Assembly (NCBI RefSeq): GCF_025273675.1 | Contig: NZ_CP045809.1 | Location: 1,922,001-1,986,000, forward strand | Origin: Gordonia pseudamarae | GTDB lineage: Bacteria > Actinomycetota > Actinomycetes > Mycobacteriales > Mycobacteriaceae | DNA length: 64,000 nt | Reading direction: 5' to 3' | In this document: positions 2,916 through 38,505 of the stretch, in pieces | Layout of the letters: every line of letters begins with the position of its first letter | How positions within the stretch are numbered: position 1 is the first letter of the stretch | Notes under the pieces: model-generated | What the model was told of the DNA's origin: nothing | Databases searched by the model: none | Seen by the model: the letters and a program-made list of their open reading frames with translations, nothing else | Position numbers and translations under genes: made by a program

Positions 2916-3755
2916 TCATAGCCGTGGTGCGATCCGCAGGAAGTCGCCGACCACCGTGTTGAACTCGGCGGCGCGTTCGATCTGGGTCCAGTGGCCACAA
3001 CGGGCGAAGACGTGCAGATCGGCATCCGGCAGCAGGCGGACCATGTTCCAGGCCACATCGACCGGAACCACCCGGTCCTCCCTGCCGTGCACCAGCAGCG
3101 TGGGAACCGTGATCGCCCGAACCTGCTCCTCGGTGATGCCGAGCTGACCGCCGGCATGGTCGGGATGGAAGAACATCAGGCGGTAGGCCTCGTGCGCGCC
3201 GGGAGCGGCGCTGGCCTCGTAGCGGATTGTCACCAGTTCGTCGGTGATGATCGAGGTGTCGACCGCGAAATAGTTCACGAGCAGATCACGCATAGCCGGT
3301 GCGGACGGTGTATAGGCGCGCAGCGCCTTGAGTCCGTCGGTCAGCTCCATCCCCACGCCCGGCGCACCCATCAGCACCAGGCGATCGAGTCGGGACCGAT
3401 CGTCTTCGGCCATCTGACAGGCGATTCGGCCGCCGAGCGAGTTGCCGATCACGGATGCCTTTTCGATGCCCAGGGCGTCGAGGAAGCCCCAGACGTGATC
3501 GGTCCAGGTGCGCAACGAGTACCGGACATCGGCGGGACGTTCGGTCGCCCCGAAGCCGACCAGGTCGAGAGCGAGGACTCGCGCGCCGGCAGCCAGGGGC
3601 TCGATCGCGTGTTGCCAATTCGCCCAGGCCGACACGCCGGGACCGGAGCCATGCAACAACACCACGGGCGCGCCCTCGCCGACGTCGTGATAGTGGGTGT
3701 TCACCCCGTTCACATCGACGTACCGGCCTTCGCGCAGATTCATGGTCGCGGTCAT
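2916..3755 (-). CDS. Meta-cleavage product hydrolase (alpha/beta hydrolase, DmpD/BphD/CmtE type)
   Basis: This 279-residue alpha/beta hydrolase should split a C-C bond in the ring-cleavage product, giving a carboxylic acid and 2-hydroxypenta-2,4-dienoate. The oxyanion loop HGSGPGVSAWANW (about 35-47) is the form typical of this subfamily. The nucleophile is S106 in GNSLGG, the acid is the D in HGREDRVVP and the base is the H in RCGHWTQIE. The ATG at 3753-3755 has GAGGAG upstream. It is the last gene of a minus-strand group, but it has its own upstream gap carrying an IclR-type box (3861-3877). The downstream products match the hydratase, aldolase and dehydrogenase at 13.7-16.6 kb. Confidence 0.85.
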   Translation of the reverse strand: MTATMNLREGRYVDVNGVNTHYHDVGEGAPVVLLHGSGPGVSAWANWQHAIEPLAAGARVLALDLVGFGATERPADVRYSLRTWTDHVWGFLDALGIEKASVIGNSLGGRIACQMAEDDRSRLDRLVLMGAPGVGMELTDGLKALRAYTPSAPAMRDLLVNYFAVDTSIITDELVTIRYEASAAPGAHEAYRLMFFHPDHAGGQLGITEEQVRAITVPTLLVHGREDRVVPVDVAWNMVRLLPDADLHVFARCGHWTQIERAAEFNTVVGDFLRIAPRL

Positions 3756-3860
3756 ATGGAGGTCTCCTCGCTGTGCTGTGCAGAACATGCGCAGCCGCGA
3801 AAGTGCCTGCGGCTGACCCGATCCAATCTATGGAGGAGTTCTGAAGCACTGCCAGAAGCG

Positions 3861-3877
3861 GTTCCGGGGGCTGGAAT
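3861..3877. promoter_or_regulatory. IclR-type box 1 (upstream of hydrolase)
   Basis: GTTCCGGGGGCTGGAAT: the GTTCC-N7-GGAAC pattern with one base changed in the last position. It lies in the gap between the FAD-monooxygenase stop (overlapping by one base) and the hydrolase start. Four better copies occur elsewhere in the cluster. Confidence 0.55.
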
Positions 3878-5067
3878 CAGCGCCGTGAGAACACCGTCGG
3901 AATTCCCGCCGGCTCACCGCCGGCCAGCAACAGTTCGCGTTGTTCCGACCGGGACAGGCTTGCCGACCGATAGCGATCGAGTTCGTCGCCGAGGTGGCGG
4001 GGATCATCGCTGAGCAGGAGTTTACGACCGGTGCTCAACGGTGCGGCGTCATCGATGAACACCCGTCGCCGGCTCTCCGCGTAGTTGTCGAGAACCGTTG
4101 TGTCGGCCGCATCGTGAATGACCGCCTGCAGGGCCTCGGCCAGTCGGAACGCGTCGAAGAAGCCGGTGATCGAACTGTGACCGGTGATGCGGGTGGTCAC
4201 ATGGGCCGCGGCACCGGCCAAGAGGACCCGCCCCACCCGGTAGGTGTCCGCGGTCCGCCGGTGCATGCGGGCGGTCCGCCATCCCAGCGTCGTCACCGGT
4301 ATGTTTTCGCTCACCCGCCGGATCGTGTTATCAACCCTGGTTCCTATCGACTCCTCCGGCCGCACAATCGGTTCGGAATACGCGCACACCCACTCACCGG
4401 GTCCGGACCGTTGCAGCAACGCGCTGGTGCGGTCGTCGCCGTGGTGATTGCCGAGATAGAACGTGGTGGCGTGGCAGCCCGCGGCGCCGAGGTCTCCCCG
4501 CACCAGCGCGGTGACCGAACGTTCACGCCAGGTGAATCCGCGAAAGCCTACGCCGAGGAGGCGGCGAACGGCGCTGCGAGTACCGTCGGCACCCACCAGC
4601 CAATCACCACGAAACGTCTGTCGTCCTACCCGCGAATCGATGTCGACGACCACACCCCGCTGGTCCTGGGTGATCGAGGCGATGCGTTCGGCCCGCACCA
4701 AACGCGTATGGCGGTACTCCGAAAGATGTTTGATCAGAACCGATGACAGTCCGTCCTCGCCGAGATGCAGGTTGAACGGGAACTCGACGTCGTCGCGCAG
4801 CACATCGAGGTCGAAGTCGATGTTCTCCCCGGTATCCGCGAGATGTATCCGCACCTGGCTTTCGGCCGCACCGGCCGCACGGGCGTCGGCGAGGACGCCG
4901 AGCCGTGCCAGCTCGGGCAGCACACACCAACTGTGGACGTACTGGCACGATGACGTGTCGTCGTCGGCAGGGTCGATGACCGTGACTTCGATTCCCGCCT
5001 TCGCCAGGGCCAGCGCCGTGCACAGACCCACGGGCTGGGCGCCGACGATGACGACATGGGCACTCAT
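3877..5067 (-). CDS. FAD-dependent aromatic monooxygenase-like protein with degenerate FAD motifs
   Basis: This 396-residue protein has the fold signature of class A flavoprotein hydroxylases (PheA/TfdB, FAD_binding_3). It has an N-terminal Rossmann segment HVVIVGAQPVGLCTALALAK, then GADGTRSAVRR at about 159-169 and GRVLLAGAAAH at about 279-289. Two normally conserved features are altered. The second Gly of GxGxxG is Q11, and the Asp of the GD motif that contacts the FAD ribityl chain is A286. The usual GxGxN segment before DA reads TGHSSITGFFDA. It may bind FAD poorly or have a changed role. The start overlaps the amidohydrolase stop by 4 bp (ATGA), so they are translationally coupled. Confidence 0.7.
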   Translation of the reverse strand: MSAHVVIVGAQPVGLCTALALAKAGIEVTVIDPADDDTSSCQYVHSWCVLPELARLGVLADARAAGAAESQVRIHLADTGENIDFDLDVLRDDVEFPFNLHLGEDGLSSVLIKHLSEYRHTRLVRAERIASITQDQRGVVVDIDSRVGRQTFRGDWLVGADGTRSAVRRLLGVGFRGFTWRERSVTALVRGDLGAAGCHATTFYLGNHHGDDRTSALLQRSGPGEWVCAYSEPIVRPEESIGTRVDNTIRRVSENIPVTTLGWRTARMHRRTADTYRVGRVLLAGAAAHVTTRITGHSSITGFFDAFRLAEALQAVIHDAADTTVLDNYAESRRRVFIDDAAPLSTGRKLLLSDDPRHLGDELDRYRSASLSRSEQRELLLAGGEPAGIPTVFSRR

Positions 5068-6167
5068 GGACGGCCGCCCGCCCCGGCAGGGCACGATGAC
5101 GCCGGTCGGCGGAGTGTGGTGATCTCGTCCGCCACCATGCCGAGAAATGCGAGGCCGTTGTGTCGGTGCAGGCCACGGGCCTGTTCGCGGGTGAGCGCGC
5201 CGGAGGATGCGGCGGCGTCCACGAATGCCGCGGCGCCCTCCAACTGTCCCGGAATGAACGGGTGGTCGGTTCCCAGAAGGAGATGGTCGCCGCCGAACCG
5301 GTCGGCCAGCACGCGTAGACTTCGGTGATCGAACACCAGTGAATCCACCCAGAGCGAGGACACCAAGCGGTCCGCGTGTGCGGGATCGACCGCGTCGAAG
5401 ATCGAGGCGCCCAGTCGCAGCCGAGGGTAGGCCCAGGCGAAGGTCCCGCAGCCGTGCGCGAGGGCGATCCGTAGCCGCGGATACCGTTCGAGAACACCGC
5501 CGAAGACCAGCGCGGTCGCGGCGATCGCGGTGTCGGTGATCATTCCCAGACCGAAATCGTAGGGCTGCCCCGACCGGCGAAGTACCCCGCCGCCACCGTC
5601 GGTGGGGTGGATCAGGATTGCCGCGCCGAGCTCCTGGGCGGCCTCGAACAGCGGCCACAGCTCAGGCGCATCGAGATCGAATTCCCCGACCTGTGAACCG
5701 ATCTCGACTCCTCGAAGCCCCAGATCGGCCACGGCCCGGTGCAGTTCGGCGACGGCGGACCCCACATGGGGCAGGGGGAGTGTGCCGAGCCCTTCGAGGC
5801 GCCCGCCGCCGCGACGTACCGCGTCGGCGATCGAGTCGTTGGACGCGCGGGCGTAGTCGACGGCGGCCCGGCGGTCGGCCCAATAGGCGAGGGTGATCGG
5901 CACCGGCGAGATCACCTGCACAGCCACCCCCGCGCGGTCGAGTTCGGCCACCCGCTCGTCGACGTCCCAGAGGACCGACCGTACTCGGCGGAAGAGTTGA
6001 TCGCCGAGCATCAGAACGCCGCCACCGTCGGTCCCCGGTACGAGAATCGGCCATCGATCGTCGGGCCGGGAGTTGAGCCGACTGCCGAGATCGATCCCGA
6101 AATAGTGCGCGTGTACGTCGACGGCACCGGCCCGATCACCGGAAACCCTCGTATCCATCAGGGTCAT
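5064..6167 (-). CDS. Amidohydrolase-family metal-dependent decarboxylase (ACMSD-like)
   Basis: This is an amidohydrolase-2 family protein of 367 residues if it starts at 6167. Metal ligands are visible: DVHAHYF near the N-terminus (HxH), H in ILIHPTDGG, H in IALAHGCGTFAWA and D in LLLGTDHPF. This ligand set is that of ACMSD and related non-oxidative decarboxylases. In this cluster it is a good candidate for removing a carboxylate from the ring-cleavage product, or from a dihydroxybenzoate, before hydrolysis. A start at 6182 is also possible; 6167 is preferred because the first metal motif follows closely. It is first in a unit with the flavoprotein, and an IclR-type box lies 81 bp upstream. 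Confidence 0.8.
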   Translation of the reverse strand: MTLMDTRVSGDRAGAVDVHAHYFGIDLGSRLNSRPDDRWPILVPGTDGGGVLMLGDQLFRRVRSVLWDVDERVAELDRAGVAVQVISPVPITLAYWADRRAAVDYARASNDSIADAVRRGGGRLEGLGTLPLPHVGSAVAELHRAVADLGLRGVEIGSQVGEFDLDAPELWPLFEAAQELGAAILIHPTDGGGGVLRRSGQPYDFGLGMITDTAIAATALVFGGVLERYPRLRIALAHGCGTFAWAYPRLRLGASIFDAVDPAHADRLVSSLWVDSLVFDHRSLRVLADRFGGDHLLLGTDHPFIPGQLEGAAAFVDAAASSGALTREQARGLHRHNGLAFLGMVADEITTLRRPASSCPAGAGGRP

Positions 6168-6247
6168 ATGTACCAGTCCCATATCCGTCGGCCCGCAGTA
6201 TCGATGAGCGCATCGTAGGCATCTGTCCCGATCCGATCTGAGTCGCT

Positions 6248-6264
6248 GTTCCGGCGGCCGGAAC
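6248..6264. promoter_or_regulatory. IclR-type box 2 (iclR/amidohydrolase divergent promoter)
   Basis: GTTCCGGCGGCCGGAAC is a perfect 17-bp palindrome around one central base. It lies between the divergent amidohydrolase (start 6167) and iclR (start 6346) genes. It suggests autoregulation as well as control of the decarboxylase unit. Confidence 0.7.
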
Positions 6265-6345
6265 AACGAAAAGCGGCAAAACGGTGACGTGCCTCACGAT
6301 ATGAGGTAGTCAATACAGACAACCGACTATGCGTCGAGGTGAACA

Positions 6346-7152
6346 ATGCTGGCCATCAGCCCCCAGCCCCGTGAGGCCGCAGGAGATACTCCGTCGATCT
6401 TGACGAAGGCGTTCGACCTGCTCCGCGCGTTCAACGCGCAGGAGCGGGTGATGACACTGAGTGAGCTTTCCCGTGCGTCGGGCCTGCCGAAATCGACCGT
6501 GCACCGGTTGCTCGCCCGGCTCATCGACCTCGGTGCGGTCGAACACCACCGGTCGGGCTACAAGATCGGAATGGCGCTGCTCGAACTCGGGGCGTCCACC
6601 CCCGCGGGATACATGCGTGATCTCGCCATGCCCCACCTGACGAAGCTGCACCAGTGGACCGGCGAGACGGTACTCATGGGTGCCCTGCGAGAGTTCGACG
6701 TCGTGTACCTGGAGAAGCTGGCGCAGCGGGAATCGCCGGCGTCCATCGTGACGATCGGCTCTCGACTGCCCGCCAATTGCACAGCACTCGGCAAAGCTCT
6801 GCTCGCCTTCGAGAATCTTGACGACCTGGCGGCGTTTCTGCCGTCGCCGCTGCCGAGGATGACACACCGGTCGATCTCCTCGGTCGACGAGTTGGTCGAA
6901 CAGTTGCGCCGCGTCAGGGCGGAGGGTGTGGCCCGCGAATGCGAGGAGGCACAACCGGGGCTCGCCTGTGTGGCGGCGCCGATCGTGATGAACGGGTTCG
7001 CCGTCGGTGCGGTGTCGGTGGGATTCAGCGCCGACCGCCCACCCGCGATGAACGTGTCGGGTGCGGTACGGGCGACTGCAAGTCAGATTGTGGCGGAACT
7101 GGAGACCGGATTGGCGGCGGGCCGGGAACACTGGTTCCCCCGGGAGATGTGA
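6346..7152 (+). CDS. IclR-family transcriptional regulator of the aromatic cluster
   Basis: This 268-residue protein has an N-terminal winged helix: ILTKAFDLLRAF, then LSELSRASGLPKSTVHRLLA at residues about 43-62. It is followed by the IclR effector domain (about 80-262) with VTIGSRLPANCTALGKALLA and GVARECEEAQPGLACVAAPI. The family regulates aromatic catabolism (PcaR, PobR, MhpR), often as an activator when the pathway compound binds. It sits in the middle of the catabolic island, divergent from the decarboxylase unit. Five GTTCC-N7-GGAAC-type boxes in the island are probably its operators. A GAGGTG ribosome site precedes the ATG. Confidence 0.9.
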   Translation: MLAISPQPREAAGDTPSILTKAFDLLRAFNAQERVMTLSELSRASGLPKSTVHRLLARLIDLGAVEHHRSGYKIGMALLELGASTPAGYMRDLAMPHLTKLHQWTGETVLMGALREFDVVYLEKLAQRESPASIVTIGSRLPANCTALGKALLAFENLDDLAAFLPSPLPRMTHRSISSVDELVEQLRRVRAEGVARECEEAQPGLACVAAPIVMNGFAVGAVSVGFSADRPPAMNVSGAVRATASQIVAELETGLAAGREHWFPREM

Positions 7153-7179
7153 TCCACGGGGGAACCCGCGCCGCGATGT

Positions 7180-8244
7180 TCAGCCGAAGACCGCGAACGC
7201 CTTGTTGGAGTTGAAGATCTCGGTGACCACCAGCTCCGACCAGCGCAGCGACATGTCGAGTTCGGACATCGCACCCAGCAGGCAGTACCAGTTGAGCATC
7301 TCGTGCTGACCGGAATCGACCACTTGACGGCTCGTGCGTGCGTTCCAGAGGTCGTAGTCGCCGGCCACCATGGCGTCGTAGAGTGTCTGGTCGGCCTCGG
7401 TGTCCGGGCGCAGATGCCACCCCTTGTCGTGAAGAAAGGCATGCGACCAGCTCGACGACGCGACCAGCGCGACCCGCTTGTCACCGCGGGCGGCGAACCG
7501 CCCTACGGCCCTGCCGAACTCGAAACAGCGGCGCGGGGACGGACCCGGGGGATCGAGGTCCTCGCCGGCGTTGATGTCGGCGAAGCGGGCGATCCCGCCC
7601 TTACGTGCGATCACATGCTCGCCATAGCAGTTCACCGCCATGGGGACAATCGGATACGGGAACTCCGCGCCGACATTGTCGAAGTCCAGAAACAGCTGGG
7701 TGTTGCCGAACGCATGTGGGAAGTGAATCCCTTTGCGCTGCTGATAGGAGTAGGCGACGTCGATACCTGAGCCGAGGACCTCTGCGGCCGCCTTCTTGGC
7801 GTAATCGGGATCTCCGCGCATGGTGAACGAGGTGTCGCCGGGAAGATCCCAGTAGTTCGGCACCTTGATCATGTCCAGCACGCCAAATGGCTCGACCTCG
7901 GTGTCCTCGTAGGCAAGAACGCAGAACGACGGGATAACCTCTTCACGGAAGTTCTCGTACTGGTCGTCGCCCCACACGATGAGAACATCCGGTGCGAACT
8001 CGTCGATGGCCTTTCGGCATCGAAGGAGATTGTCCATCAGCACCGCGCGGTGCTCGGTGGCCGCGGAAACTCCTTCGTCGTCTCCCCATTCGGTCTTCGC
8101 CAACGGTGGCCACGCCGAAGGATCCTTGCGATCGGCGGGGATATCGGGATCTTTGAGGGTGCTCTTGAGCAGGCTCGCCATATGGGTGTCCTTGCCGGCG
8201 AGCAGGGGATAGTGGGTCAAACCCACACCGAGAACTTCTGCCAT
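7180..8244 (-). CDS. LigB-type (class III) extradiol ring-cleavage dioxygenase
   Basis: This 354-residue protein belongs to the LigB superfamily of Fe(II) extradiol dioxygenases, which open a catechol next to a hydroxyl. Candidate metal and acid/base residues are H11 in GVGLTHYPLL, D and E in VWGDDQYENF, the His pair in IHFPHAFGN and the H in SSSWSHAFL. It is longer than bare LigB (about 300) and resembles single-chain forms of the family. It leads a minus-strand group only in gene order; the ferredoxin and reductase genes lie upstream with gaps of 13 and 16 bp, so all three probably share one transcript. It should act on the diol made by the Rieske system and SDR. Confidence 0.8.
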   Translation of the reverse strand: MAEVLGVGLTHYPLLAGKDTHMASLLKSTLKDPDIPADRKDPSAWPPLAKTEWGDDEGVSAATEHRAVLMDNLLRCRKAIDEFAPDVLIVWGDDQYENFREEVIPSFCVLAYEDTEVEPFGVLDMIKVPNYWDLPGDTSFTMRGDPDYAKKAAAEVLGSGIDVAYSYQQRKGIHFPHAFGNTQLFLDFDNVGAEFPYPIVPMAVNCYGEHVIARKGGIARFADINAGEDLDPPGPSPRRCFEFGRAVGRFAARGDKRVALVASSSWSHAFLHDKGWHLRPDTEADQTLYDAMVAGDYDLWNARTSRQVVDSGQHEMLNWYCLLGAMSELDMSLRWSELVVTEIFNSNKAFAVFG

Positions 8245-8260
8245 GGTCTCTCCTCGTTCG

Positions 8261-9472
8261 CTATCTTCCGGTCCCGCGTCCGGCCGGTACCGGAGCGGAA
8301 AAATCCTGATGACGGGTACCGGAGCCGATTGCCTTTCGGAACTTCATCAGAAGTCGCGGATTGTCGATGACGAGCGCGCCGACCAATACTCCGGAATCAT
8401 CGGCGTAGGCCGCCACCAGATCGCCGGTACGGGCCTCGCCCGTGACGGTCACCGGTGAACCCAGCCCCGGTCGCCCGATGATCTGAATGCGCTTGCCGTA
8501 CTGGTCCGACCACACGTAGGGCAATGCGGGACGCGGTGCCGGTGCGCCCACGATATCTGCGGCGATAGCATCGGCGTGTTCGTTGGCGTTGGTCCAGTGC
8601 TCTATACGGGTGAGTTCGCCGTAGAGGGGATTGTGCCAGCGGGCGACATCCCCGGCGGCGTATACATCGGCGGCGCCGATCGCCCGCATGGTCTGATCAC
8701 AGACGATCCCGTTCTCCAGAGTCAGGGACGAGGACTCCAGCCAGGTCACCGCGGGCGTAGCACCGATCCCCACGACGACGAGATCGGCGGGCAGAATCCG
8801 GCCGTCGGACAGCCGAACGCCGGTTGCCCGGCCGTGGCCGTCGAGGCCGCAAACCTGTTGCCCGGTCACGAGCGTGGCCCCGTTGGCGGTGTGGAGTTCG
8901 GCCAGACGCCGCCCGACATCGGCACCGAGTTGCTGGGCCAGAGGCGCTTCCTGGGCTTCGACAATGGTCACCGGCGTGCCATGTGCGGTTGCGGTGGAGG
9001 CGAATTCGGCTCCGATGAAGCCGGCGCCGATCGCAACGGCCCGTTGCCCGGTCGTCCGCAGCGCCCGACGTATCGCATGGGCGTCGTCTGCGTCGCGAAT
9101 GGTGTGGACGTTGCCGAATCCCGCCGTGCCGGGAAGCGTGCGCGCCCGCGCGCCACACGCGATCACCAGTTTGTCATAGGAGATCTCGGTGTGATCGTCG
9201 AGGGCGAGGGCCTTTCCGGCTGTGTCCAGTGCGGTCGCGCGGGTCCCCAGCCGCAGGTCCACGCGCAATTCCGCGAGCGCGCCGGTTGTGATCAGCGGGA
9301 CCGGCACGCCGGCTCCCCGCGGATCGATCATCTCCTTGGACAAGGGTGGCTTGTCGTAGGGCTGGTGCGGCTCCTCACCGACGATGGTGATCGAACCGCC
9401 GAACTCACGGGACCGCAGTGCTTGAGCGGTCCGGATTCCGGCGACTGAAGCCCCGACGATCACTACGTGCAT
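8261..9472 (-). CDS. Ferredoxin-NAD(P) reductase component of the Rieske dioxygenase
   Basis: This 403-residue FAD/NAD-linked reductase passes electrons to the ferredoxin at 9486-9836. The N-terminal FAD-binding motif is VVIVGASVAGIRTAQALR, the central NAD-binding motif is AVAIGAGFIGAEFA, and the second FAD motif is AIGAADVYAAGDVARW near residue 270. The C-terminal domain is that of BphA4/RhlD-type reductases. The ATG at 9470-9472 is used because the dinucleotide motif starts right after it. The gaps to the ferredoxin (13 bp) and dioxygenase (16 bp) indicate one operon. Confidence 0.88.
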   Translation of the reverse strand: MHVVIVGASVAGIRTAQALRSREFGGSITIVGEEPHQPYDKPPLSKEMIDPRGAGVPVPLITTGALAELRVDLRLGTRATALDTAGKALALDDHTEISYDKLVIACGARARTLPGTAGFGNVHTIRDADDAHAIRRALRTTGQRAVAIGAGFIGAEFASTATAHGTPVTIVEAQEAPLAQQLGADVGRRLAELHTANGATLVTGQQVCGLDGHGRATGVRLSDGRILPADLVVVGIGATPAVTWLESSSLTLENGIVCDQTMRAIGAADVYAAGDVARWHNPLYGELTRIEHWTNANEHADAIAADIVGAPAPRPALPYVWSDQYGKRIQIIGRPGLGSPVTVTGEARTGDLVAAYADDSGVLVGALVIDNPRLLMKFRKAIGSGTRHQDFSAPVPAGRGTGR

Positions 9473-9485
9473 TACAGTCTCCTGC

Positions 9486-9836
9486 CTAGTCATCTTTACC
9501 GGACTGCGCCGTGAGGATGTAGACCTTGTCGTCCTCGATCTCGACACCGAACGTCTTCAGGGCGACGGTGGCCGGAAAACACAGGGGCTTACCGGTACGA
9601 ATGTCGAAGCGCGCCATATGCAGCGGGCACAGCACCTCGTTGCCGTCGAGGTCGCTGTCGGAACCGAGTGACCATTCCTCATGGGTGCAGGTGTCGGCGG
9701 TCGCGAAGAACTCGCCGTCCTCATTGCGATACAGGGCGATCGGCATGTCGCCCGAAACGGTCATCGACTCACCGTTGCCGAGATCGTTCACGGTGCAGGC
9801 GAAAAGTCGTCCGGTGGTCTGGATGATGCTGTCCAT
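9486..9836 (-). CDS. Rieske [2Fe-2S] ferredoxin component
   Basis: This 116-residue BphA3-type ferredoxin has cluster ligands C50 and H52 (CTH) and C70 and H73 (CPLH). It moves electrons from the flavoprotein reductase to the terminal oxygenase alpha subunit, which is transcribed divergently from 10050. Its length and spacing of ligands are normal for the family. The promoter region it shares with the alpha subunit gene carries an IclR-type box (9956-9972). Confidence 0.92.
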   Translation of the reverse strand: MDSIIQTTGRLFACTVNDLGNGESMTVSGDMPIALYRNEDGEFFATADTCTHEEWSLGSDSDLDGNEVLCPLHMARFDIRTGKPLCFPATVALKTFGVEIEDDKVYILTAQSGKDD

Positions 9837-9955
9837 GGCCGCCTTTCAGGTAGCGTCGGGCGATCTGGATCCGCGCCGAATTCGTGTGGTGCCGAAGGAA
9901 CGGCGATTCGATGTCGGTCAGTATTGTTTTCACAGACTTTCCCCGGACATACCCG

Positions 9956-9972
9956 GTTCCGGACGCTGGAAC
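9956..9972. promoter_or_regulatory. IclR-type box 3 (ferredoxin/alpha-subunit divergent promoter)
   Basis: GTTCCGGACGCTGGAAC, pattern GTTCC-N7-GGAAC. It is 78 bp before the alpha-subunit start and 120 bp before the ferredoxin start, so it could serve both units. Confidence 0.7.
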
Positions 9973-10049
9973 GGGCCACTACATTTCGCGGCTGAACCCG
10001 TGACGATCGACACACGCCCAATTACCCAGCCCTACCGAGGAGGACTCTG

Positions 10050-11369
10050 GTGTCTGAATATGTCGTCGATGATCGGGTGATGCCGCGATTTCAGGTCAAT
10101 CGTGACGTGATGGTGGATCCGGAGGTGTTCGCCAAGGAGCGGGACGCGATCTTCGAACACAGTTGGCTCTACATCGGTCATGAGACCGAACTGAAGAAGA
10201 ACGACTTCAAGACCCGAACTGTTGCCGGCCGGCCGCTGATATTCGCGCGGGACGCCAAGAACGATATCCGGGTCTGGATTAACTCATGCCCCCATCGCGG
10301 TGCGATGCTCTGCCGTGAACGCGACGGCAATGCCCGCTTCATGACCTGCTTCTATCACGGATGGAGCTTCAGTATCTCCGGGGACATGGTGTCGATGCCC
10401 GGTGACGATTCGTACGGTGCTGACTTCGCCCGCCCCGATCTTGCCGCGCCGGCACGGGTCGATTCCTACCGAGGATTCGTCTTCGTCAGCTTCGACCCCG
10501 AAATCGTCGACCTGAAAACGTATCTGGCCGGTGCCACCGAGTATCTCGATCTGGTGTGCGACCAGTCGGCGACACAGATGCAGGTGCTGGAGGGGACGCA
10601 CGAGTACTCGATCAAGGCGAACTGGAAGCTGCTGGTGGAGAACAGTTTCGACGGCTACCATGCCGTCTCCACGCACCAGCGATACTTCGAGATGGTGCTC
10701 GCCGCCCGCGGCTCGCTGGATCCGAGCGCGCTTGCGGACTCCCGGGCCGTCGATCTGGGCAACGGGCACGCGGTCGTGGCGGGTGCACCGGCCACCGAGG
10801 GCCTGTTCGGCCGTCCGCTGTCCGAGTCGGGTGCCGCCGAACGTGATCGGCGATTCGGCGACTTTCGGGCGAGATACGGCGATGGGTGGGTCGACAGGAT
10901 GCAGGGAAACCGCAATCTGGTGATCTTCCCGAACCTGGTGGTGATCGACCTCGTCATGGGTGTGGTGATTCGCAAGATCGATCCGGTGACACCCGACTAC
11001 ATGGAGGTGACGGCCTGGGAACTCGCCCCGCCGGAGGAGGGCGAGGAACTGCGCCGGCAGCGGCTGGACAACTTCCTGACGTTCTGGGGCCCGGGCGGTC
11101 TCGCGTCGCCCGATGATGTGGAGGCGCTGGAGAGTTGCCAGGTGGGATACGGCGGCCGCAAGGAACTCGGCTGGTCCGATATCTCGCGAGGTATGAACAA
11201 GACGGCAGCGTCGACCTCGGACGAACTGCAGATGCGGACGTGGTGGCGCAGGTGGAACGAACTGATCACCGGTGAGGTCCTTCCGCCGGAGGAGCAGTCC
11301 GCACTCGGCGAGATGTTCACCGCCGGTCGTCGCCCGGCCGACGCCTCGGCCGCGGCGGTCACGCGATAG
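10050..11369 (+). CDS. Rieske aromatic-ring-hydroxylating dioxygenase, alpha (large) subunit
   Basis: This 439-residue catalytic subunit has Rieske ligands C80, H82, C100 and H103 (CPH and CFYHGW). The mononuclear iron facial triad is H204 and H209 in FDGYHAVSTH plus a C-terminal Asp, probably in SPDDVEALES. D201 corresponds to the Asp that bridges electron transfer. It should dihydroxylate an aromatic ring to a cis-diol using O2 and electrons from the ferredoxin. GTG start with AGGAGG just upstream. Its beta partner is not adjacent: it is encoded 2 kb away on the opposite strand (12973-13497). The substrate cannot be read from the sequence; benzoate/cumate/biphenyl-type acids or hydrocarbons are all possible. 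Confidence 0.93.
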   Translation: MSEYVVDDRVMPRFQVNRDVMVDPEVFAKERDAIFEHSWLYIGHETELKKNDFKTRTVAGRPLIFARDAKNDIRVWINSCPHRGAMLCRERDGNARFMTCFYHGWSFSISGDMVSMPGDDSYGADFARPDLAAPARVDSYRGFVFVSFDPEIVDLKTYLAGATEYLDLVCDQSATQMQVLEGTHEYSIKANWKLLVENSFDGYHAVSTHQRYFEMVLAARGSLDPSALADSRAVDLGNGHAVVAGAPATEGLFGRPLSESGAAERDRRFGDFRARYGDGWVDRMQGNRNLVIFPNLVVIDLVMGVVIRKIDPVTPDYMEVTAWELAPPEEGEELRRQRLDNFLTFWGPGGLASPDDVEALESCQVGYGGRKELGWSDISRGMNKTAASTSDELQMRTWWRRWNELITGEVLPPEEQSALGEMFTAGRRPADASAAAVTR

Positions 11370-11380
11370 CCGCCGGATGA

Positions 11381-11422
11381 CGAGACCGCGCCGTCCCCGC
11401 GGGCGGGGACGGCGCGGTCTCG
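11381..11422. terminator. Strong bidirectional hairpin between convergent genes
   Basis: A 20-bp perfect inverted repeat (left arm 11381-11400, right arm 11403-11422) with a two-base centre lies between the convergent alpha-subunit and DLH-like genes. No U-tract follows, as is common for high-G+C terminators. Confidence 0.75.
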
Positions 11423-11428
11423 GTCCGA

Positions 11429-12124
11429 TCAGCGGATCCCGGGCTCTTCGGCACGGTTGCGTGCCCGCCATTGCAGCGCGAGCGGGGTCAGTCGTGGCGC
11501 GACCCGTGCCGCCAGCCATTCGGTCGTGCGTTGCCAACCGTCGTACCAGGCGGCGTAGCCGCGGCCGTCGTCGTCACCGTGCGAATAGAAATGCCTGCCG
11601 GCGCCCGCATAGGACACGATCTGCGAGAAGGTGTTCGAATCGTCGTTCAGTGCCGAACTCAGCGCCGCGAGCGATCGGGGGCAGACTCCGGGGTCGTCCC
11701 GGCCGAAGAGTCCGAGCCACGGTGTGGCCAGAGGCCCTGGGACGGTACCGGGTTCGGTCGCCGACATGCTCACGGCGGCTCCGAATTCCATCTGGGTGGC
11801 GGCATCGAGAACCACGCGGCCACCGATGCCGAGACCGACCATCCCCACCTGCTCGGGCGACCAGCCGCGTTCGGCGGCCCGCCTGAGCAACGCCGAAACC
11901 ACGGCCGGACCGCCGGCGAGGGTGGTTTCGGCGGCCAACGACTCAAAGCCGTGTTCGGCCAGCCGGTTCATCACCTCGGGGCCGTAACACTCAAGTGTGC
12001 CGGGTTCGCACAGGACGACAACGGTCCCGCCGGGAATGCCGCCGAGCGGAACCTCCAGAGTCGTGCGCTCGACCGAATCGATGCCGACGGTCGAGCGAAT
12101 CGGGTCGATCAGGACATCAGCCAT
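11429..12124 (-). CDS. Dienelactone hydrolase-like protein lacking the nucleophile
   Basis: This 231-residue protein has the alpha/beta fold pattern of dienelactone hydrolases. The nucleophile elbow, normally GxCxGG, reads GLGIGG at 97-102, so the catalytic Cys/Ser position is G99. The acid D in LFGRDD is kept, but the His segment reads GAGRHFYSHG instead of GAGH. It is therefore probably not a normal hydrolase; it may be a binding or structural partner, or use another residue. It is the last gene of the beta-subunit / SDR / DLH-like operon, 36 bp after the SDR. Confidence 0.65.
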   Translation of the reverse strand: MADVLIDPIRSTVGIDSVERTTLEVPLGGIPGGTVVVLCEPGTLECYGPEVMNRLAEHGFESLAAETTLAGGPAVVSALLRRAAERGWSPEQVGMVGLGIGGRVVLDAATQMEFGAAVSMSATEPGTVPGPLATPWLGLFGRDDPGVCPRSLAALSSALNDDSNTFSQIVSYAGAGRHFYSHGDDDGRGYAAWYDGWQRTTEWLAARVAPRLTPLALQWRARNRAEEPGIR

Positions 12125-12160
12125 GCGAAATCTCCTCCTGAGGTCTTGCGCTCCGAAGCC

Positions 12161-12976
12161 TCATAGATCACCGGCGGTCCCGTGCGGCTGCCACGGCCAA
12201 TACTTGGCGGTCGCGCCGCCGTCCACGGTGATGTTCGTTCCGGTGATCATCGCCGCGTCGTCGGAGGCGAGAAAGACGACGGCACCCACATAGTCGGCGG
12301 GCGAGGGCAGACGCGACATCGGCAATTGGGCGGCAAAGTTCATCCGGTATTCCTGTGGGCGGTCAATGAGGTCGTTCATCTGGGCGATCGCGGCCGGATC
12401 GGTGGGGGCGGTGGCGGTCGGGGTGAATCCGTTGACGCGAATGCCGTGTGCCGCGTATTCCATCGCCGCCGAACGAGTGAAGTTGAGCAAGCCGGACTTT
12501 CCGGTCGCGTAGCCGATGTTGCCGGGCTGCCCCTGAAACGCCGCCGTCGACAGCACGTTGACGATGCTGCCGCCGCGCCCGGAGGACACCATCGCCCGGG
12601 CGGCGGCACGGGTGAACAGAAATGCGCCGCCCAGAATGACCTGGAGCTGCCTCAGATAGGCGTCGTAGTCCATCGATTCGATACCGCGCTGATCGAAGAA
12701 GACCGCGTTATTCACCAGGACGTCGACCCTGCCCCAACGTGAAAGCGCGCTCTCGACGGCCTCGTCGGCGTGTCCGGATTCGGTCACATCGCCGGGCACG
12801 GCGACAGCGTCACTGCCGGCGGCGACAATCTTCTCCGCGCAGTCGCCGCATACCTCGGCCGACAGATCGGTACATACGATGCGGGCGCCTTCGGCGGCCA
12901 TCCCCATGGCCAGCGTGCCGCCGATGTTGGGGCTGGTACCGGTGACGATCGCCACCTTGCCCTCGAGTCGCCTCAT
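12161..12976 (-). CDS. SDR-family dehydrogenase, probable cis-dihydrodiol dehydrogenase
   Basis: This 271-residue classical SDR has TGTSPNIGG as cofactor motif, DVLVNNA, the catalytic S in NVLSTAAF and YATGK as YxxxK. The Asp in CTDLS after strand 2 favours NAD(H). It should oxidise the cis-diol made by the Rieske dioxygenase to a catechol. The SPNIG variant of the glycine motif is unusual. The ATG overlaps the beta-subunit stop by 4 bp, so these two are coupled. The role is inferred mainly from context; other SDR functions are possible. Confidence 0.78.
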   Translation of the reverse strand: MRRLEGKVAIVTGTSPNIGGTLAMGMAAEGARIVCTDLSAEVCGDCAEKIVAAGSDAVAVPGDVTESGHADEAVESALSRWGRVDVLVNNAVFFDQRGIESMDYDAYLRQLQVILGGAFLFTRAAARAMVSSGRGGSIVNVLSTAAFQGQPGNIGYATGKSGLLNFTRSAAMEYAAHGIRVNGFTPTATAPTDPAAIAQMNDLIDRPQEYRMNFAAQLPMSRLPSPADYVGAVVFLASDDAAMITGTNITVDGGATAKYWPWQPHGTAGDL

Positions 12977-13497
12977 AGGATGATGCTCACTTTTCCGTGC
13001 GGTCGGAGTGCATCGAGATCCAGTGTCGAACGCCGGACCACAAACCGGAAGCCGTGGTCGTCGTCGCGTTCGACGACGTGGTCGTAGTGTCCGACGTAGG
13101 TGTCGACGTTGCCGGCACGCATGCGGAAGACCGCGAAATTGGCCCGGAGGAGAAGCCGGCCTTCGAGTATCGGCGTCACCTTGACGTTCGACACGAATCG
13201 GCGCGTCCGCGAATGTGGATACTCGGCATGAGCCGAGCGCCGCATCAGTGAATTGATCCGTTGTTCGAGCAGAAACCGGTCGTCCTGCACCAGAAACAGG
13301 TCGTTCGCCGGGTCGCCGTCGGGTCGGTCGGTTGCCGGGATCAGGTATTCGCCGGTCGGTGCGAACAATTCCAGCCACTCGGGAAGACGCCAGGAATCAA
13401 GCAGATCGGCTTCCCGGAACAGGAATTGCTCGATCTCATACGACATGGTCATCAACTCTACGGCGGTGGGCCGAGGCTGCAGTTCGACATCAACCAT
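12973..13497 (-). CDS. Rieske dioxygenase beta (small) subunit
   Basis: This 174-residue NTF2-like subunit has the family signature YEIEQFLFREADLLDSWRLP, then EWLELFAPTGEYLIPA, and RTRRFVSNV with RVNFAVFRMR-type strands (here LLLRANFAVFRMRAGN). It forms the structural half of the alpha3beta3 oxygenase with the protein at 10050-11369. It leads an operon with the SDR and the DLH-like gene and is divergent from the hydratase operon. Two IclR-type boxes lie between them. Confidence 0.9.
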   Translation of the reverse strand: MVDVELQPRPTAVELMTMSYEIEQFLFREADLLDSWRLPEWLELFAPTGEYLIPATDRPDGDPANDLFLVQDDRFLLEQRINSLMRRSAHAEYPHSRTRRFVSNVKVTPILEGRLLLRANFAVFRMRAGNVDTYVGHYDHVVERDDDHGFRFVVRRSTLDLDALRPHGKVSIIL

Positions 13498-13561
13498 GAT
13501 CTCTCCTTATGTCGGTAGTCCAGATCACACTGGGTGATCCGGGTCAGGCAAGACATGAGGT

Positions 13562-13578
13562 GTTCCGGACCCCGGAAC
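13562..13578. promoter_or_regulatory. IclR-type box 4 (beta-subunit/hydratase divergent promoter)
   Basis: GTTCCGGACCCCGGAAC, seven-base arms GTTCCGG and CCGGAAC around three bases. It lies 64 bp upstream of the beta-subunit start. Its centre is 42 bp, four helical turns, from box 5. Confidence 0.7.
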
Positions 13579-13603
13579 GTATCCGGGGCCGGCATTCTGA
13601 TTC

Positions 13604-13620
13604 GTTCCGGCGAGCGGAAC
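13604..13620. promoter_or_regulatory. IclR-type box 5 (beta-subunit/hydratase divergent promoter)
   Basis: GTTCCGGCGAGCGGAAC, pattern GTTCC-N7-GGAAC. It is 100 bp upstream of the hydratase start. It pairs with box 4 in the same intergenic region, so each divergent operon may have its own site. Confidence 0.7.
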
Positions 13621-13720
13621 CGGGGCTCAACGAAACACGGCGGCGCGGACCAGCCTTGGATTCTCACCTCAGCCCGGACTTTTTCGATCGACCCGGCCTC
13701 CACCATCGACAAGGGGAAAC

Positions 13721-14566
13721 ATGACGGCCTCAGTACATTCACACACCGATATCGTGTCGCGAGGGGACGGTGATTCGGCGGCCGCCATAGGTGCGGCGAT
13801 CGAACGGCTGGAACGGGCATACCGCACACGGCGTCCGTGCCCGCCCGTGCGGGATCTGCTCGGCGCCGACAACGTCGCCGCCGCGTATGCCGTGCAGCGA
13901 CGCCGGGTCGAGGCGCGGACGGCGGGCGGGGCCAGGATAGTCGGCCGCAAGATCGGCCTGACCGCACCTGTCGTGCAGCGGCAGTTGGGCGTTGATCAAC
14001 CGGATTCCGGGGTGCTTCTCGACGATATGAGGCTCGCTGAAGGGTCGACGGTGGCGGCCGGGCGGCTTCTGCAGCCCAAGGTCGAGGCAGAGATTGCCTT
14101 CATCCTGGGCACAGACCTCGACGGGGCGACTGATCTGCGTACGATCCGTGCCGCCGTGCACCACGCGGTCGCGGCCATCGAGATCGTGGATTCTCGGATT
14201 GCGGACTGGGACATCACGATCGCCGATACGGTGGCAGACAACGCCTCGTGCGGGCTGTTCGTACTGGGTGACCGGCAGGTGTCACTGGATGATATCGATC
14301 CCGTCGCCGCGACGATGGCCCTGTACGTCGACGATGAACAGGTGTCGTCCGGGACCGGCGCCGAGTGCCTCGGGGACCCGTTGATCGCCTTGCAATGGCT
14401 CGCCAGGACTGCGCAGGAGTTCGGCGATCCGCTGCGGTCCGGACAGATCATCCTTTCCGGTGCACTGGGGCCGATGGTGGTCGCGGAGCCGGGCCGGCGG
14501 GTGTGCGCCGAGGTGTCGGGTCTGGGACGGGTGACGGTTCGATTCGGTGAAGGAGATGAGCGATGA
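13721..14566 (+). CDS. mhpD: 2-keto-4-pentenoate (2-hydroxypentadienoate) hydratase
   Basis: This 281-residue member of the MhpD/DmpE family, FAH-like fold, adds water to 2-hydroxypenta-2,4-dienoate to give 4-hydroxy-2-oxovalerate. Visible family segments are [38 protein letters not shown] (metal ligands), [12 protein letters not shown] and the C-terminal [11 protein letters not shown]. It is first in the lower-pathway operon and overlaps the acetaldehyde dehydrogenase start by 4 bp. The order hydratase, dehydrogenase, aldolase is the standard one for meta-cleavage pathways. Confidence 0.92.
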
Positions 14567-15534
14567 GCACGGTCAAGGTCGCGATCATCGGATCGGGCAA
14601 TATCGGCACCGATCTGATGATCAAGGTGCTGAGGCAATCGAGCCGGCTTCAGATGGGCGCCATGGTCGGGATCGACCCCGGATCCGACGGGCTGGCCCGG
14701 GCCACACGGCTGGGAGTGCCGACCACCGCAGACGGTGTGGAGGGCCTGATCGCGATGGACGGTTTCGGTGAGATCGGAATCGTATTCGACGCCACCTCCG
14801 CGGGAGCGCATGTGCGCAACGCCGAACTTCTCGAACCGTTCGGGAAGGTGCTTGTCGACCTGACACCGGCGGCGATCGGTCCCTACGTCGTTCCACCGGT
14901 CAATCTGGACGCCCAACTCGGCGGAGGGGCCCGCAATGTGAACATGGTCACCTGTGGTGGGCAGGCAACCATCCCGATCGTGTACGCGGTGTCAAGGGTC
15001 ACCGCCGTCCCGTACGCGGAGATCGTGGCGTCGATCGCCTCGGCCTCGGCAGGGCCGGGCACCAGGGCCAATATCGACGAGTTCACCGAGACCACGGCCG
15101 CGGCGATCGAGACCGTCGGAGGTGCGGACCGGGGCAAGGCGATCATCATCCTCAATCCCGCGGACCCGCCACCGCTGATGCGCGACACCGTTGCCTGCCT
15201 GACCGGGGACTGTGACCGCGACTCGGTGCGCCGGTCCATCGAATCGATGGTCGCGCAGGTGGCGGAGTATGTGCCGGGCTACCGGCTCAAGCAAGAGGTC
15301 CAGTTCGCAGACATCGATCCCGACGAACCGGTGCACACTCTGCTCCGCGCCGGCAGTGGGCCGGTGACCACCAGGATCACGGTCTTTCTCGAGGTCGAAG
15401 GTGCCGCACACTATCTGCCCGCCTATGCCGGCAATCTCGACATCATGACCTCGGCCGCGCTGCGCACGGCCGAGGCGGCCGCCGCACGCATTCAGACACC
15501 CGCGACGACACCGGTCGTGGCGGCCACGAACTGA
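14563..15534 (+). CDS. mhpF: Acetaldehyde dehydrogenase (acylating)
   Basis: This 323-residue DmpF/MhpF/HsaG-type enzyme converts acetaldehyde (or propanal) with CoA and NAD to acetyl-CoA (propionyl-CoA). The N-terminal motif is [14 protein letters not shown]. The catalytic C131 is in [12 protein letters not shown]. Further signatures are [19 protein letters not shown] and [15 protein letters not shown]. The family works as a complex with the aldolase, which channels the volatile aldehyde; that gene follows 11 bp later. The start overlaps the hydratase stop by 4 bp. Confidence 0.95.
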
Positions 15535-15545
15535 CGGGAACTGTT

Positions 15546-16589
15546 GTGAACGAAATGAATAGTCCGCAGCGCCTGTACATCCAGGACGTCACTCTGCGTG
15601 ACGGCATGCATGCTGTGCGGCATCGGATGAGTACTCGCGATGTCGGCCGGATCGTGGCCGCTCTCGACAGGGCCGGCGTCGACGCCATCGAAGTGGCGCA
15701 CGGTGATGGGCTGGCCGGCGGCAGTCTCACCTACGGTCCTGGCTCGCACACCGACTGGGAATGGATCGAGACGGCCGCGGCGAACATCGACACCGCCGTG
15801 TTGACCACGCTGTTGCTCCCCGGGATAGGCACCATCGAGGATCTGAAGCGGGCATACGGGCTCGGCGTTCGATCGGTGCGGATTGCCACGCATTGCAGCG
15901 AAGCCGATGTCTCGGCGCAGCACATCGCAACCGCGCGCGAACTGGGTATGGACGTATCCGGCTTCTTGATGATGAGTCATATGCTTCCCGCCGCAGAACT
16001 CGCCGCTGAGGCCAAGAAGATGGAATCCTATGGCGCGCATTGCGTCTACGTGACCGATTCGGGCGGACGCCTGACCATGGGCGGTGTACGCGAGCGGGTG
16101 CGGGCATATCGGTCGGTGCTCGAACCCGACACCGGGATCGGCATTCACGCCCATGAGAATCTGTCACTGGCCGTGGCAAATTCGGTTGTTGCCGTCGAAG
16201 AAGGCGTCACACGGGTTGACGCCTCGTTGGCGGGTCAGGGTGCGGGTGCGGGCAACTGCCCGATCGAACCGTTCATCGCGGTGGCCGATCTCAACGACTG
16301 GCCGCACGGCTGCGACCTGTTCGCGTTGCAGGACGCGGCCGATGACATCGTGCGCCCTTTGCAGGACAGACCGGTGCGTGTTGACCGGGAAACGCTGACG
16401 CTGGGATACGCGGGTGTCTATTCAAGCTTCCTCCGGCACGCCGAATCGGCCGCAGCTCAACACGGTCTCGACGTCAGGACAATTCTCGTCGAGGCCGGGC
16501 GCCGTGGACTCGTCGGTGGGCAGGAGGACATGATCGTCGACATCGCGCTCGACCTCACACGCGATGCACGCCTCATCGCCGCGACCTGA
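15546..16589 (+). CDS. mhpE: 4-hydroxy-2-oxovalerate aldolase
   Basis: This 347-residue DmpG/HsaF/MhpE aldolase splits 4-hydroxy-2-oxovalerate into pyruvate and acetaldehyde. The N-terminal [13 protein letters not shown] holds the catalytic R and metal-binding D. The HxH metal motif is GIHAHENLS. The tail [14 protein letters not shown] and the C-terminal helical domain are those of the complex-forming class. GTG start at 15546. It partners the dehydrogenase directly upstream. Confidence 0.95.
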
Positions 16590-16643
16590 ATGTACCGGGC
16601 TCGCCGAGCCGTATTCCATCACCACACCACCACGGGAGACACA

Positions 16644-38347: not shown

Positions 38348-38359
38348 AGTCTTATTCGG

Positions 38360-38433
38360 GGTGAGTGACGGGACTCGAACCCGCGACAGCCAGGATCACA
38401 ACCTGGTGCTCTACCAACTGAACTACACTCACC
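38360..38433 (-). tRNA. tRNA-His (GUG)
   Basis: The minus strand folds into a cloverleaf with acceptor GTGAGTG / CACTCAC, D-loop GTTCAGTTGGTAGAGC, anticodon loop TTGTGAT (anticodon GTG) and T-arm GCGGG-TTCGAGT-CCCGT. The extra 5' G (38433) opposite C73 (38360), diagnostic for tRNA-His, is included. CCA is not encoded. Confidence 0.97.
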
Positions 38434-38505
38434 ATCGGCGTCGGAAACCAGGGCTTGCGCGCCGGGTTCCAGAGCCAGGAACATACTCTAGCGGGTGAGG
38501 CGGGC

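Follow-up and report, generated by a model that had tools for sequence, protein, structure and literature searches.

The catabolic island and its boxes

We analyzed a stretch of 64,000 nucleotides from the genome of Gordonia pseudamarae (contig NZ_CP045809.1, positions 1,922,001 to 1,986,000; hereafter the window), in which an island of 15 genes at ~2.9–18.3 kb holds a gene for an IclR-type regulator and five copies of a 17-bp palindrome, GTTCC-N7-GGAAC, which we call the box. Judging from their spacing, the genes would form seven units. At the left end lies an alpha/beta hydrolase of the meta-cleavage product type (HsaD/BphD-like; 2916–3755, minus strand; PF00561), which scores 223 bits with the HsaD model, below its cut-off of 400. 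An ACMSD-like decarboxylase of the amidohydrolase superfamily (5064–6167, minus; PF04909; PDB 2wm1 at 6.1e-54) overlaps by 4 bp the gene with which it would share a unit, a FAD monooxygenase resembling HspB and PnpA (3877–5067, minus; PF01494; PDB 7da9 at 8.5e-58 and 6ain at 3.4e-45). The iclR gene (6346–7152, plus), a unit of its own, encodes a protein of 268 amino acids with both the N-terminal helix-turn-helix domain (PF09339, HTH_IclR, 4.9e-17) and the C-terminal effector domain (PF01614, IclR_C, 2.5e-30) above cut-off, which places it in the IclR family. Its score with the PcaR/PcaU/PobR model (NCBIfam TIGR02431), 123.0 bits for a cut-off of 284.75, leaves it outside that subfamily, and its relatives with solved structure are mostly named as IclR-type or similar regulators. 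Three minus-strand genes follow, a Rieske-type ferredoxin identified as a reading frame (9486–9836), a ferredoxin reductase (8261–9472; PF07992, PF14759) and a LigB-type extradiol dioxygenase (7180–8244; PF02900), and then, alone on the plus strand, the alpha subunit of a p-cumate dioxygenase-like Rieske dioxygenase (10050–11369; PF00848, PF00355), with relatives named p-cumate 2,3-dioxygenase. The last two units would comprise, on the minus strand, the Rieske beta subunit (12973–13497; PF00866), an SDR dehydrogenase that is a candidate dihydrodiol dehydrogenase (12161–12976; PF13561) and a protein of the dienelactone-hydrolase (DLH) family (11429–12124; PF01738) and, on the plus strand, a 2-oxopent-4-enoate hydratase of the MhpD/DmpE type (13721–14566; PF01557; 278 bits with PRK11342, cut-off 350), an acetylating acetaldehyde dehydrogenase (14563–15534; PF09290), a 4-hydroxy-2-oxovalerate aldolase (15546–16589; PF00682, PF07836) and an AMP-binding CoA ligase (16590–18341; PF00501).

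A scan of the window found the box without mismatch at 6248–6264, 9956–9972, 13562–13578 and 13604–13620, and with one mismatch, the last base being T, at 3861–3877 (GTTCCGGGGGCTGGAAT), bearing out the five positions of the original prediction that had been made for this DNA. The left arm reads GTTCCGG in all five, and the box at 3861 overlaps the stop codon of the upstream gene by 1 bp. We tested for chance occurrence over the four intergenic regions, one of them extended to 3879 to take in the 3861 box: against the five sites observed with at most one mismatch, first-order Markov resampling gave no site in 19,279 of 20,000 trials, one in 708 and two in 13. Looser matches, with up to two mismatches, are close to background (44 in the window versus 34.5 expected) and therefore carry no meaning. 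The original prediction had found no further full copy in the intergenic regions that it examined; in the window as a whole, an exact GTTCC-N7-GGAAC without the GTTCCGG arm occurs at 38466–38482, ~30 bp upstream of a tRNA-His gene (38358–38432, minus strand), where it probably arose by chance.

Conservation of the box and its register to the predicted promoters

Relatives of the IclR protein, 58–87% identical, were found at 11 loci, and a further one, 60% identical, in genome G028. The box (with at most one mismatch) lies upstream of iclR at 11 of these 12 orthologous loci; at the remaining one, L033, no such box was found upstream of iclR. It also precedes the corresponding operons in the orthologous islands of Gordonia, Nocardioides, Streptomyces, Pseudonocardia and Rhodococcus plasmids. 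In the window and the Gordonia and Nocardioides loci L023–L029, 39 of 44 promoters have their box centre at a distance of 70–142 bp from the estimated start codon. Over 15 loci, a queried gene has its estimated start within 250 bp of 34 of the 41 exact boxes and of 32 of the 50 one-mismatch boxes (locus L032, near-identical to L031, was left out of these counts and of the site profile and register counts below). Where gene order differs, separate boxes stand ahead of Rieske alpha and LigB in Streptomyces prunicolor (L030), a one-mismatch box stands ahead of the relocated hydratase operon in two Nocardioides loci (L027, L028), and on the Rhodococcus plasmids boxes lie between or before the ABC-transporter, dehydrogenase and CoA-ligase genes of the cluster. 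Judged by these arrangements, the box follows its genes through rearrangement of the island.

The clearest signal emerged when promoters were oriented and aligned on the box centre. Each promoter was assigned a single box, the nearest to the start at a distance of at least 40 bp, chosen regardless of any -10 element; three promoters with an estimated start less than 40 bp away (the hydratase promoters of L027 and L028 and the amidohydrolase promoter of L029) were dropped beforehand. Outside the box, the main peaks of information are a T at +15, an A at +39 and a T at +43 from the centre. We scored a promoter as in register if it has an A..T pair at 39 and 43 bp from the centre, or at 40 and 44 bp (register 0 or +1). 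Such a -10-like pair is present at 71 of the 80 promoters, and other adjacent register pairs reach 0–7 of 80. The result holds without the window (64 of 73) and with one genome per clade (39 of 45), and the pair is seen at all seven promoters of the window, at all three of those dropped, and at 58 of the 66 promoters whose estimated start is 70 bp or more away (0–7 for other registers). All 43 promoters with an exact box are in register, as are 28 of the 37 with a one-mismatch box. Broken down by gene, every promoter conforms for the hydrolase (4), amidohydrolase (12), Rieske alpha (11), ferredoxin (10), hydratase (6), Rieske beta (9) and DLH (4) genes. For comparison, the genome has 12 exact copies outside the window, and none of their 24 sides is in register; of the two sides of the 38466 copy one is, inside the start of the tRNA-His gene. 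A copy at G000:C1:1680790 matches the consensus perfectly and has no promoter in register. This suggests that the distance to the -10 element, and not the box alone, sets working operators apart from chance copies.

Read as promoters of the sigma-70 type, these alignments predict a -10 hexamer starting 38 or 39 bp from the box centre, a -35 element at 15 bp and a spacer of 17 or 18 bp, with the box itself at about -58 to -42. The four promoter regions of the original prediction would then hold seven promoters. The box at 3861 would serve the hydrolase promoter (minus strand), with a predicted -10 TAGATT at 3825–3830 assigned by the register, a -35-like element at 3849–3854 and a transcription start site at ~3818. 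The single box at 6248 lies between the divergent amidohydrolase promoter (minus; predicted -10 TACGAT, 6212–6217; start site ~6205) and iclR promoter (plus; CACGAT, 6295–6300; ~6307), and the single box at 9956 between the promoters of the ferredoxin operon (minus; AATACT, 9920–9925; ~9913) and of Rieske alpha (plus; GACGAT, 10002–10007; ~10014). In the fourth region, the register of the 13562 box fits only the leftward Rieske beta promoter (minus; CAGTGT, 13527–13532; ~13520), and that of the 13604 box only the rightward hydratase promoter (plus; CAGCCT, 13651–13656; ~13663). The same pattern recurs in other loci, some of the regions counted here coming from close relatives: where a single box separates two queried genes, both sides are in register in 14 of 19 regions, the iclR side being the one that fails in four of the five failures, and in all five regions with two boxes, each box keeps the register toward one gene only, the left box toward the leftward gene, the right box toward the rightward one. 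Since neither of its boxes is in register with the opposite side, we regard the 13562/13604 pair, with centres 42 bp apart, as two back-to-back operators, and for the same reason we rejected a cooperative tandem reading of the two.

We consider the chances about even that a single IclR operator, being symmetric, switches on both divergent promoters simultaneously, each arm standing in the same -50 geometry to its promoter. If it does, the succession of box, 6 bp, -35 element, 17 or 18 bp and -10 element would be a grammar from which the members of such regulons could be listed by sequence across actinobacteria.

Proposed regulation by the IclR protein of the island

We think it likely that the island's IclR protein binds the five boxes and activates the seven operon heads in response to an aromatic carboxylate of the p-cumate or 2,3-dihydroxybenzoate kind, or to an early product of it. 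A dimer, or a pair of dimers, would occupy the 17-bp palindrome at about -58 to -42, six bp upstream of a weak -35 element, and would thereby control 15 genes, iclR included. The symmetry of a single box between divergent genes would serve both promoters, and where there are two boxes each would drive its own. An activator is favored because the whole box precedes a -35 element of which only the first T is well kept (56 of the 80 promoters have it at +15), as for an activator that touches RNA polymerase. The arrangement is also that of IclR-type activators, whose operator lies upstream of -35 at a fixed distance, the promoters here being predicted ones.

Several observations weigh against this interpretation. 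Nine of the 80 promoters are out of register, and the register is kept at only 12 of 16 iclR promoters, two of four ferredoxin reductase promoters and one of four LigB promoters. Among box sides without a queried gene, 22 of 87 are in register, where ~5 would be expected by chance (~0.06 per side from base composition); some of the 22 face transporter and CoA-ester genes of the cluster that were not queried, and others are unexplained. Four promoters in register (those of iclR in L025, of the amidohydrolase in L026 and of the hydratase in L034 and L052) have an estimated start codon nearer than the predicted transcription start site, so that either the start estimate or the -10 element must be wrong. 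Apart from their first T, the -35 elements are poor, and in the window even this T is present at five of seven promoters, the iclR and Rieske alpha promoters being without it. Moreover, the window was among the data from which the register was originally derived, and many of the loci are related.

The distribution of the box over whole genomes is a further point to be weighed. In the G. pseudamarae genome (5,147,008 bp, one contig) there are 17 exact copies of GTTCC-N7-GGAAC, versus 5 of the reversed control, and four of the 17 are in the island. For a strict box, GTTCCR-N5-YGGAAC, which was counted over 61 genomes, the numbers are 8 and 1, again with four in the island, so that half of the strict boxes of this genome lie outside it. 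Among genomes of the same genus, 33 without an orthologue at the level of those in G017, G028 and G034 (one of them, G023, has a 38% identical IclR paralogue) hold 81 strict boxes, or 2.45 each, versus 24, or 0.73 each, for the reversed control. To this extent the motif is frequent elsewhere without linkage to the pathway, the outcome that the original prediction had named as speaking against it, yet all four strict boxes of G034 are in its island and four of the five of G028 are within a 22-kb stretch around iclR. Two of the six in G017 are on the island contig and two, spaced 38 bp, on another contig, where they are probably the remainder of a split island; the last two are elsewhere. Boxes are thus concentrated in the island without being limited to it, which is what one would expect were this operator class shared with other IclR proteins. 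Of the 81 strict boxes, 11 (control 3) are in G026 alone, a genome with no close orthologue of the regulator, where they are perhaps the regulon of another IclR protein.

Of the alternatives, the one that survives best keeps the same regulon and makes the IclR protein a repressor that blocks the promoters until released by the inducer. The IclR family includes repressors: among the regulators of aromatic pathways in Rhodococcus opacus, HbaR1 and VanR1 are described as activators, CatR and PcaR as repressors (PMC9582017), and the box lies just 6 bp from the -35 element. In the register found, however, it is wholly upstream of that element, whereas the putative CatR site of R. opacus overlaps -35 and -10 of PcatR (PMC9582017), and -35 elements as weak as these hint at promoters that need an activator. 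We therefore judge repression unlikely; provided that the regulon itself is right, activation is considerably the more probable of the two modes.

A second alternative, which we hold to be improbable, is that the box belongs to another regulator, such as an IclR protein encoded elsewhere or the TetR-type protein whose gene (982–1548) lies 1.4 kb from the island. By this neighbor, the claim that the IclR protein is the only local regulator stands for the island itself and not for its surroundings. The p-cumate (cmt) genes of Pseudomonas putida and Burkholderia xenovorans are reported to be under the TetR-type CymR (PMC5224996), whereas our island has its IclR gene inside, and the Rhodococcus clusters contain a second IclR gene. 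Yet the TetR-type protein, which we rejected as the binder, has no match at E <= 1e-8 in the retrieved stretches of the 15 other island loci, whereas iclR and the box travel together; in its arms the box matches IclR operators, and the CymR site, given as ACAAACAGAC-N6-GTCTGTTTGT (PMC5224996), is different. Finally, the possibility that a GC-rich genome has produced these palindromes by chance, for which the 17 genomic copies and the near-background number of loose matches might speak, is rejected by the resampling, in which no trial reached three sites, and excluded for practical purposes by the conservation of the box at corresponding promoters and its fixed register.

The proposal of a compact regulon, with one regulator and with boxes that bracket the island, is thus supported both by phylogenetic footprinting and by the fixed distance from box to promoter. 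The observation is real, ordinary in kind and unusually well defined, and the spacing rule makes this well-known type of switch unusually easy to test. For a pathway known in actinobacteria under the name of p-cumate dioxygenase clusters, it supplies a testable operator together with seven predicted start sites, and it suggests the membership of the pathway, which on Rhodococcus plasmids would include transporter and CoA-ester genes. In Gordonia, Rhodococcus or Nocardioides, regulator and box could serve as a sensor of aromatic acids.

Operator class, pathway and further copies of the box

We built a profile from 66 promoter-linked sites, found with a search pattern that allowed one mismatch. 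Positions 6 and 12, which the search had left open, are a purine and a pyrimidine, respectively, in all 66; the other arm letters are kept in 60–66 of 66, but they were part of the search pattern and are by themselves weak evidence. MhpR of Escherichia coli is an activator with its operator at about -58 to -42 of Pa. It is an IclR protein, as is the island regulator, and the meta-cleavage pathway under its control likewise closes with hydratase, aldolase and acetaldehyde dehydrogenase steps; its operator, listed as GGTGCACCTGGTGCACA (PMC8222616), differs in its letters from the box, and its upper pathway is another one. Our profile agrees in its arms with the GTT-11-AAC subgroup, predicted for 54 orthologous groups (Suvorova and Gelfand 2021, PMC8222616), whose sites share with the box the length of 17 bp and the arms GTTYCR and YGRAAC. 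The centre is different: position 7 is G in 39 of 66 sites and position 11 C or T in 51, where the subgroup consensus YW3R has Y and R, and position 9 is C or G in 62, the box being GC-rich where the subgroup has W3. Subgroup sites are described as tandem, 18–22 bp apart, and are placed from start codons, mostly at -20 to -80 with a tail to -300, whereas the island boxes are single or back-to-back and were placed here from the -10 element. The closest motif listed in that work is ATTCC-N7(5)-GGAAT of GenR from Corynebacterium glutamicum, likewise an actinobacterial regulator of aromatic catabolism; it has the same inner half-site letters and spacing, differs in the first and last base, and governs the 3-hydroxybenzoate/gentisate pathway (PMC8222616). 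Compared with these motifs, the box is not of a new type and belongs by its arms, though not by its centre, to a published class of IclR operators. Its distinctness from PcaR and PobR sites, as originally proposed, is therefore correct in detail and does not amount to a new class, and this orthologous group may already be among the tables of that work. In our searches of the open-licence literature, we recognized no paper that describes this regulon, its spacing rule or a regulator–operator pair for the pathway. The reach of the operator type beyond this orthologue group is indicated by a box (1487–1503 of locus L021, genome G060) between the gene of a 42% identical IclR paralogue and a hydratase gene.

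By family, all enzymes of a meta-cleavage route are present: dioxygenase, dehydrogenase, ring-cleavage enzyme, decarboxylase, hydrolase, hydratase, aldolase and acetaldehyde dehydrogenase. This gene content fits meta-cleavage of the p-cumate or 2,3-dihydroxybenzoate type, and the predicted route would parallel those of the opa and cmt clusters, from 2,3-dihydroxylation of a benzoate through dehydrogenation, meta-cleavage beside the carboxyl-bearing carbon, decarboxylation and hydrolysis to a C5 unit converted to pyruvate and acetyl-CoA. In the alignment of the amidohydrolase with human ACMSD (PDB 2wm1), the HxH motif, two later histidines and one aspartate are matched. CmtD, of the class II aldolase type, is a different decarboxylase from that of the island. 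Among the 120 matches listed for Rieske alpha, out of 4722, the p-cumate dioxygenase name is borne by 44 and a benzoate/toluate name by at least 7, these being annotations only. The HspB/PnpA-like monooxygenase, the DLH protein and the CoA ligase fit nowhere in a simple p-cumate route, so that the substrate may be another substituted benzoate. Gene sets related to the island are also found in Rhodococcus ruber, Sphingobium and Mycobacterium paragordonae, beside FCD-domain or other regulators. We rejected catabolism of riboflavin and lumichrome as the pathway, since the pyrone route described for it (PMC12746152) does not match the set of hydratase, aldolase and acetaldehyde dehydrogenase.

Among published clusters, opa of Pseudomonas PTH10 shares with the island a four-component BenA/AntA-like Rieske dioxygenase, a dihydrodiol dehydrogenase, an extradiol dioxygenase, an ACMSD-related decarboxylase and the hydrolase, hydratase, aldolase and acetaldehyde dehydrogenase (PMC6362003). 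OpaC, however, resembles the type I extradiol enzymes, to which the island enzyme, with its LigB domain, does not belong (type I being that of OpaC and DhbA); among the opa enzymes described, neither an HspB-like monooxygenase nor a DLH protein nor a CoA ligase was seen, and opa is given as a single transcription unit (PMC6362003), where the island has seven predicted promoters. The cmt clusters have the reaction types in the same order as the island, and that of Rhodococcus sp. T104, likened here by its description and not by sequence, is flanked by three IclR genes (PMC5224996). An island of Gordonia polyisoprenivorans 135 shares the order IclR, extradiol dioxygenase, FAD oxidoreductase, ferredoxin, alpha, DLH, SDR and beta, in an account that presents it without operator or regulon (PMC11117675).

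On two Rhodococcus plasmids (L034, 25417–25674; L035, 10186–10458), three boxes each, one or two of them exact and the rest with one mismatch, lie between a zinc-binding dehydrogenase gene and genes of a branched-chain-type ABC transporter, which suggests that uptake of the substrate is part of the regulon there. In the window, a frame for an IS110-type transposase (1567–2388) between the TetR-type gene and the island is possibly the left edge of an acquired segment.

The 13 exact copies outside the island, one at 38466 and the others in L037–L048, have diverse contexts. Six (L039, L040, L043, L046, L047 and L048) look coding, since they overlap a reading frame with high GC content at third codon positions, three of these with a Pfam domain. 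The frame overlapped by the copy in L037 has a Cas6-like domain and that in L042 a CobB/CobQ-like one, and L041 lies ~75 bp past the 3' end of an Lhr-like gene. The copy in L038 (1940–2100; G000:C1, ~763 kb), apparently between genes and upstream of one for a FAD_binding_2 protein, overlaps a sequence resembling a site of the KstR-type steroid regulator, TNNAACNNGTTNNA, and a second such site lies ~130 bp away. In L037 (1111–2193), the copy at G000:C1:129705 overlaps the 5' part of the frame with the Cas6 domain, and this genome may thus have CRISPR-associated genes.

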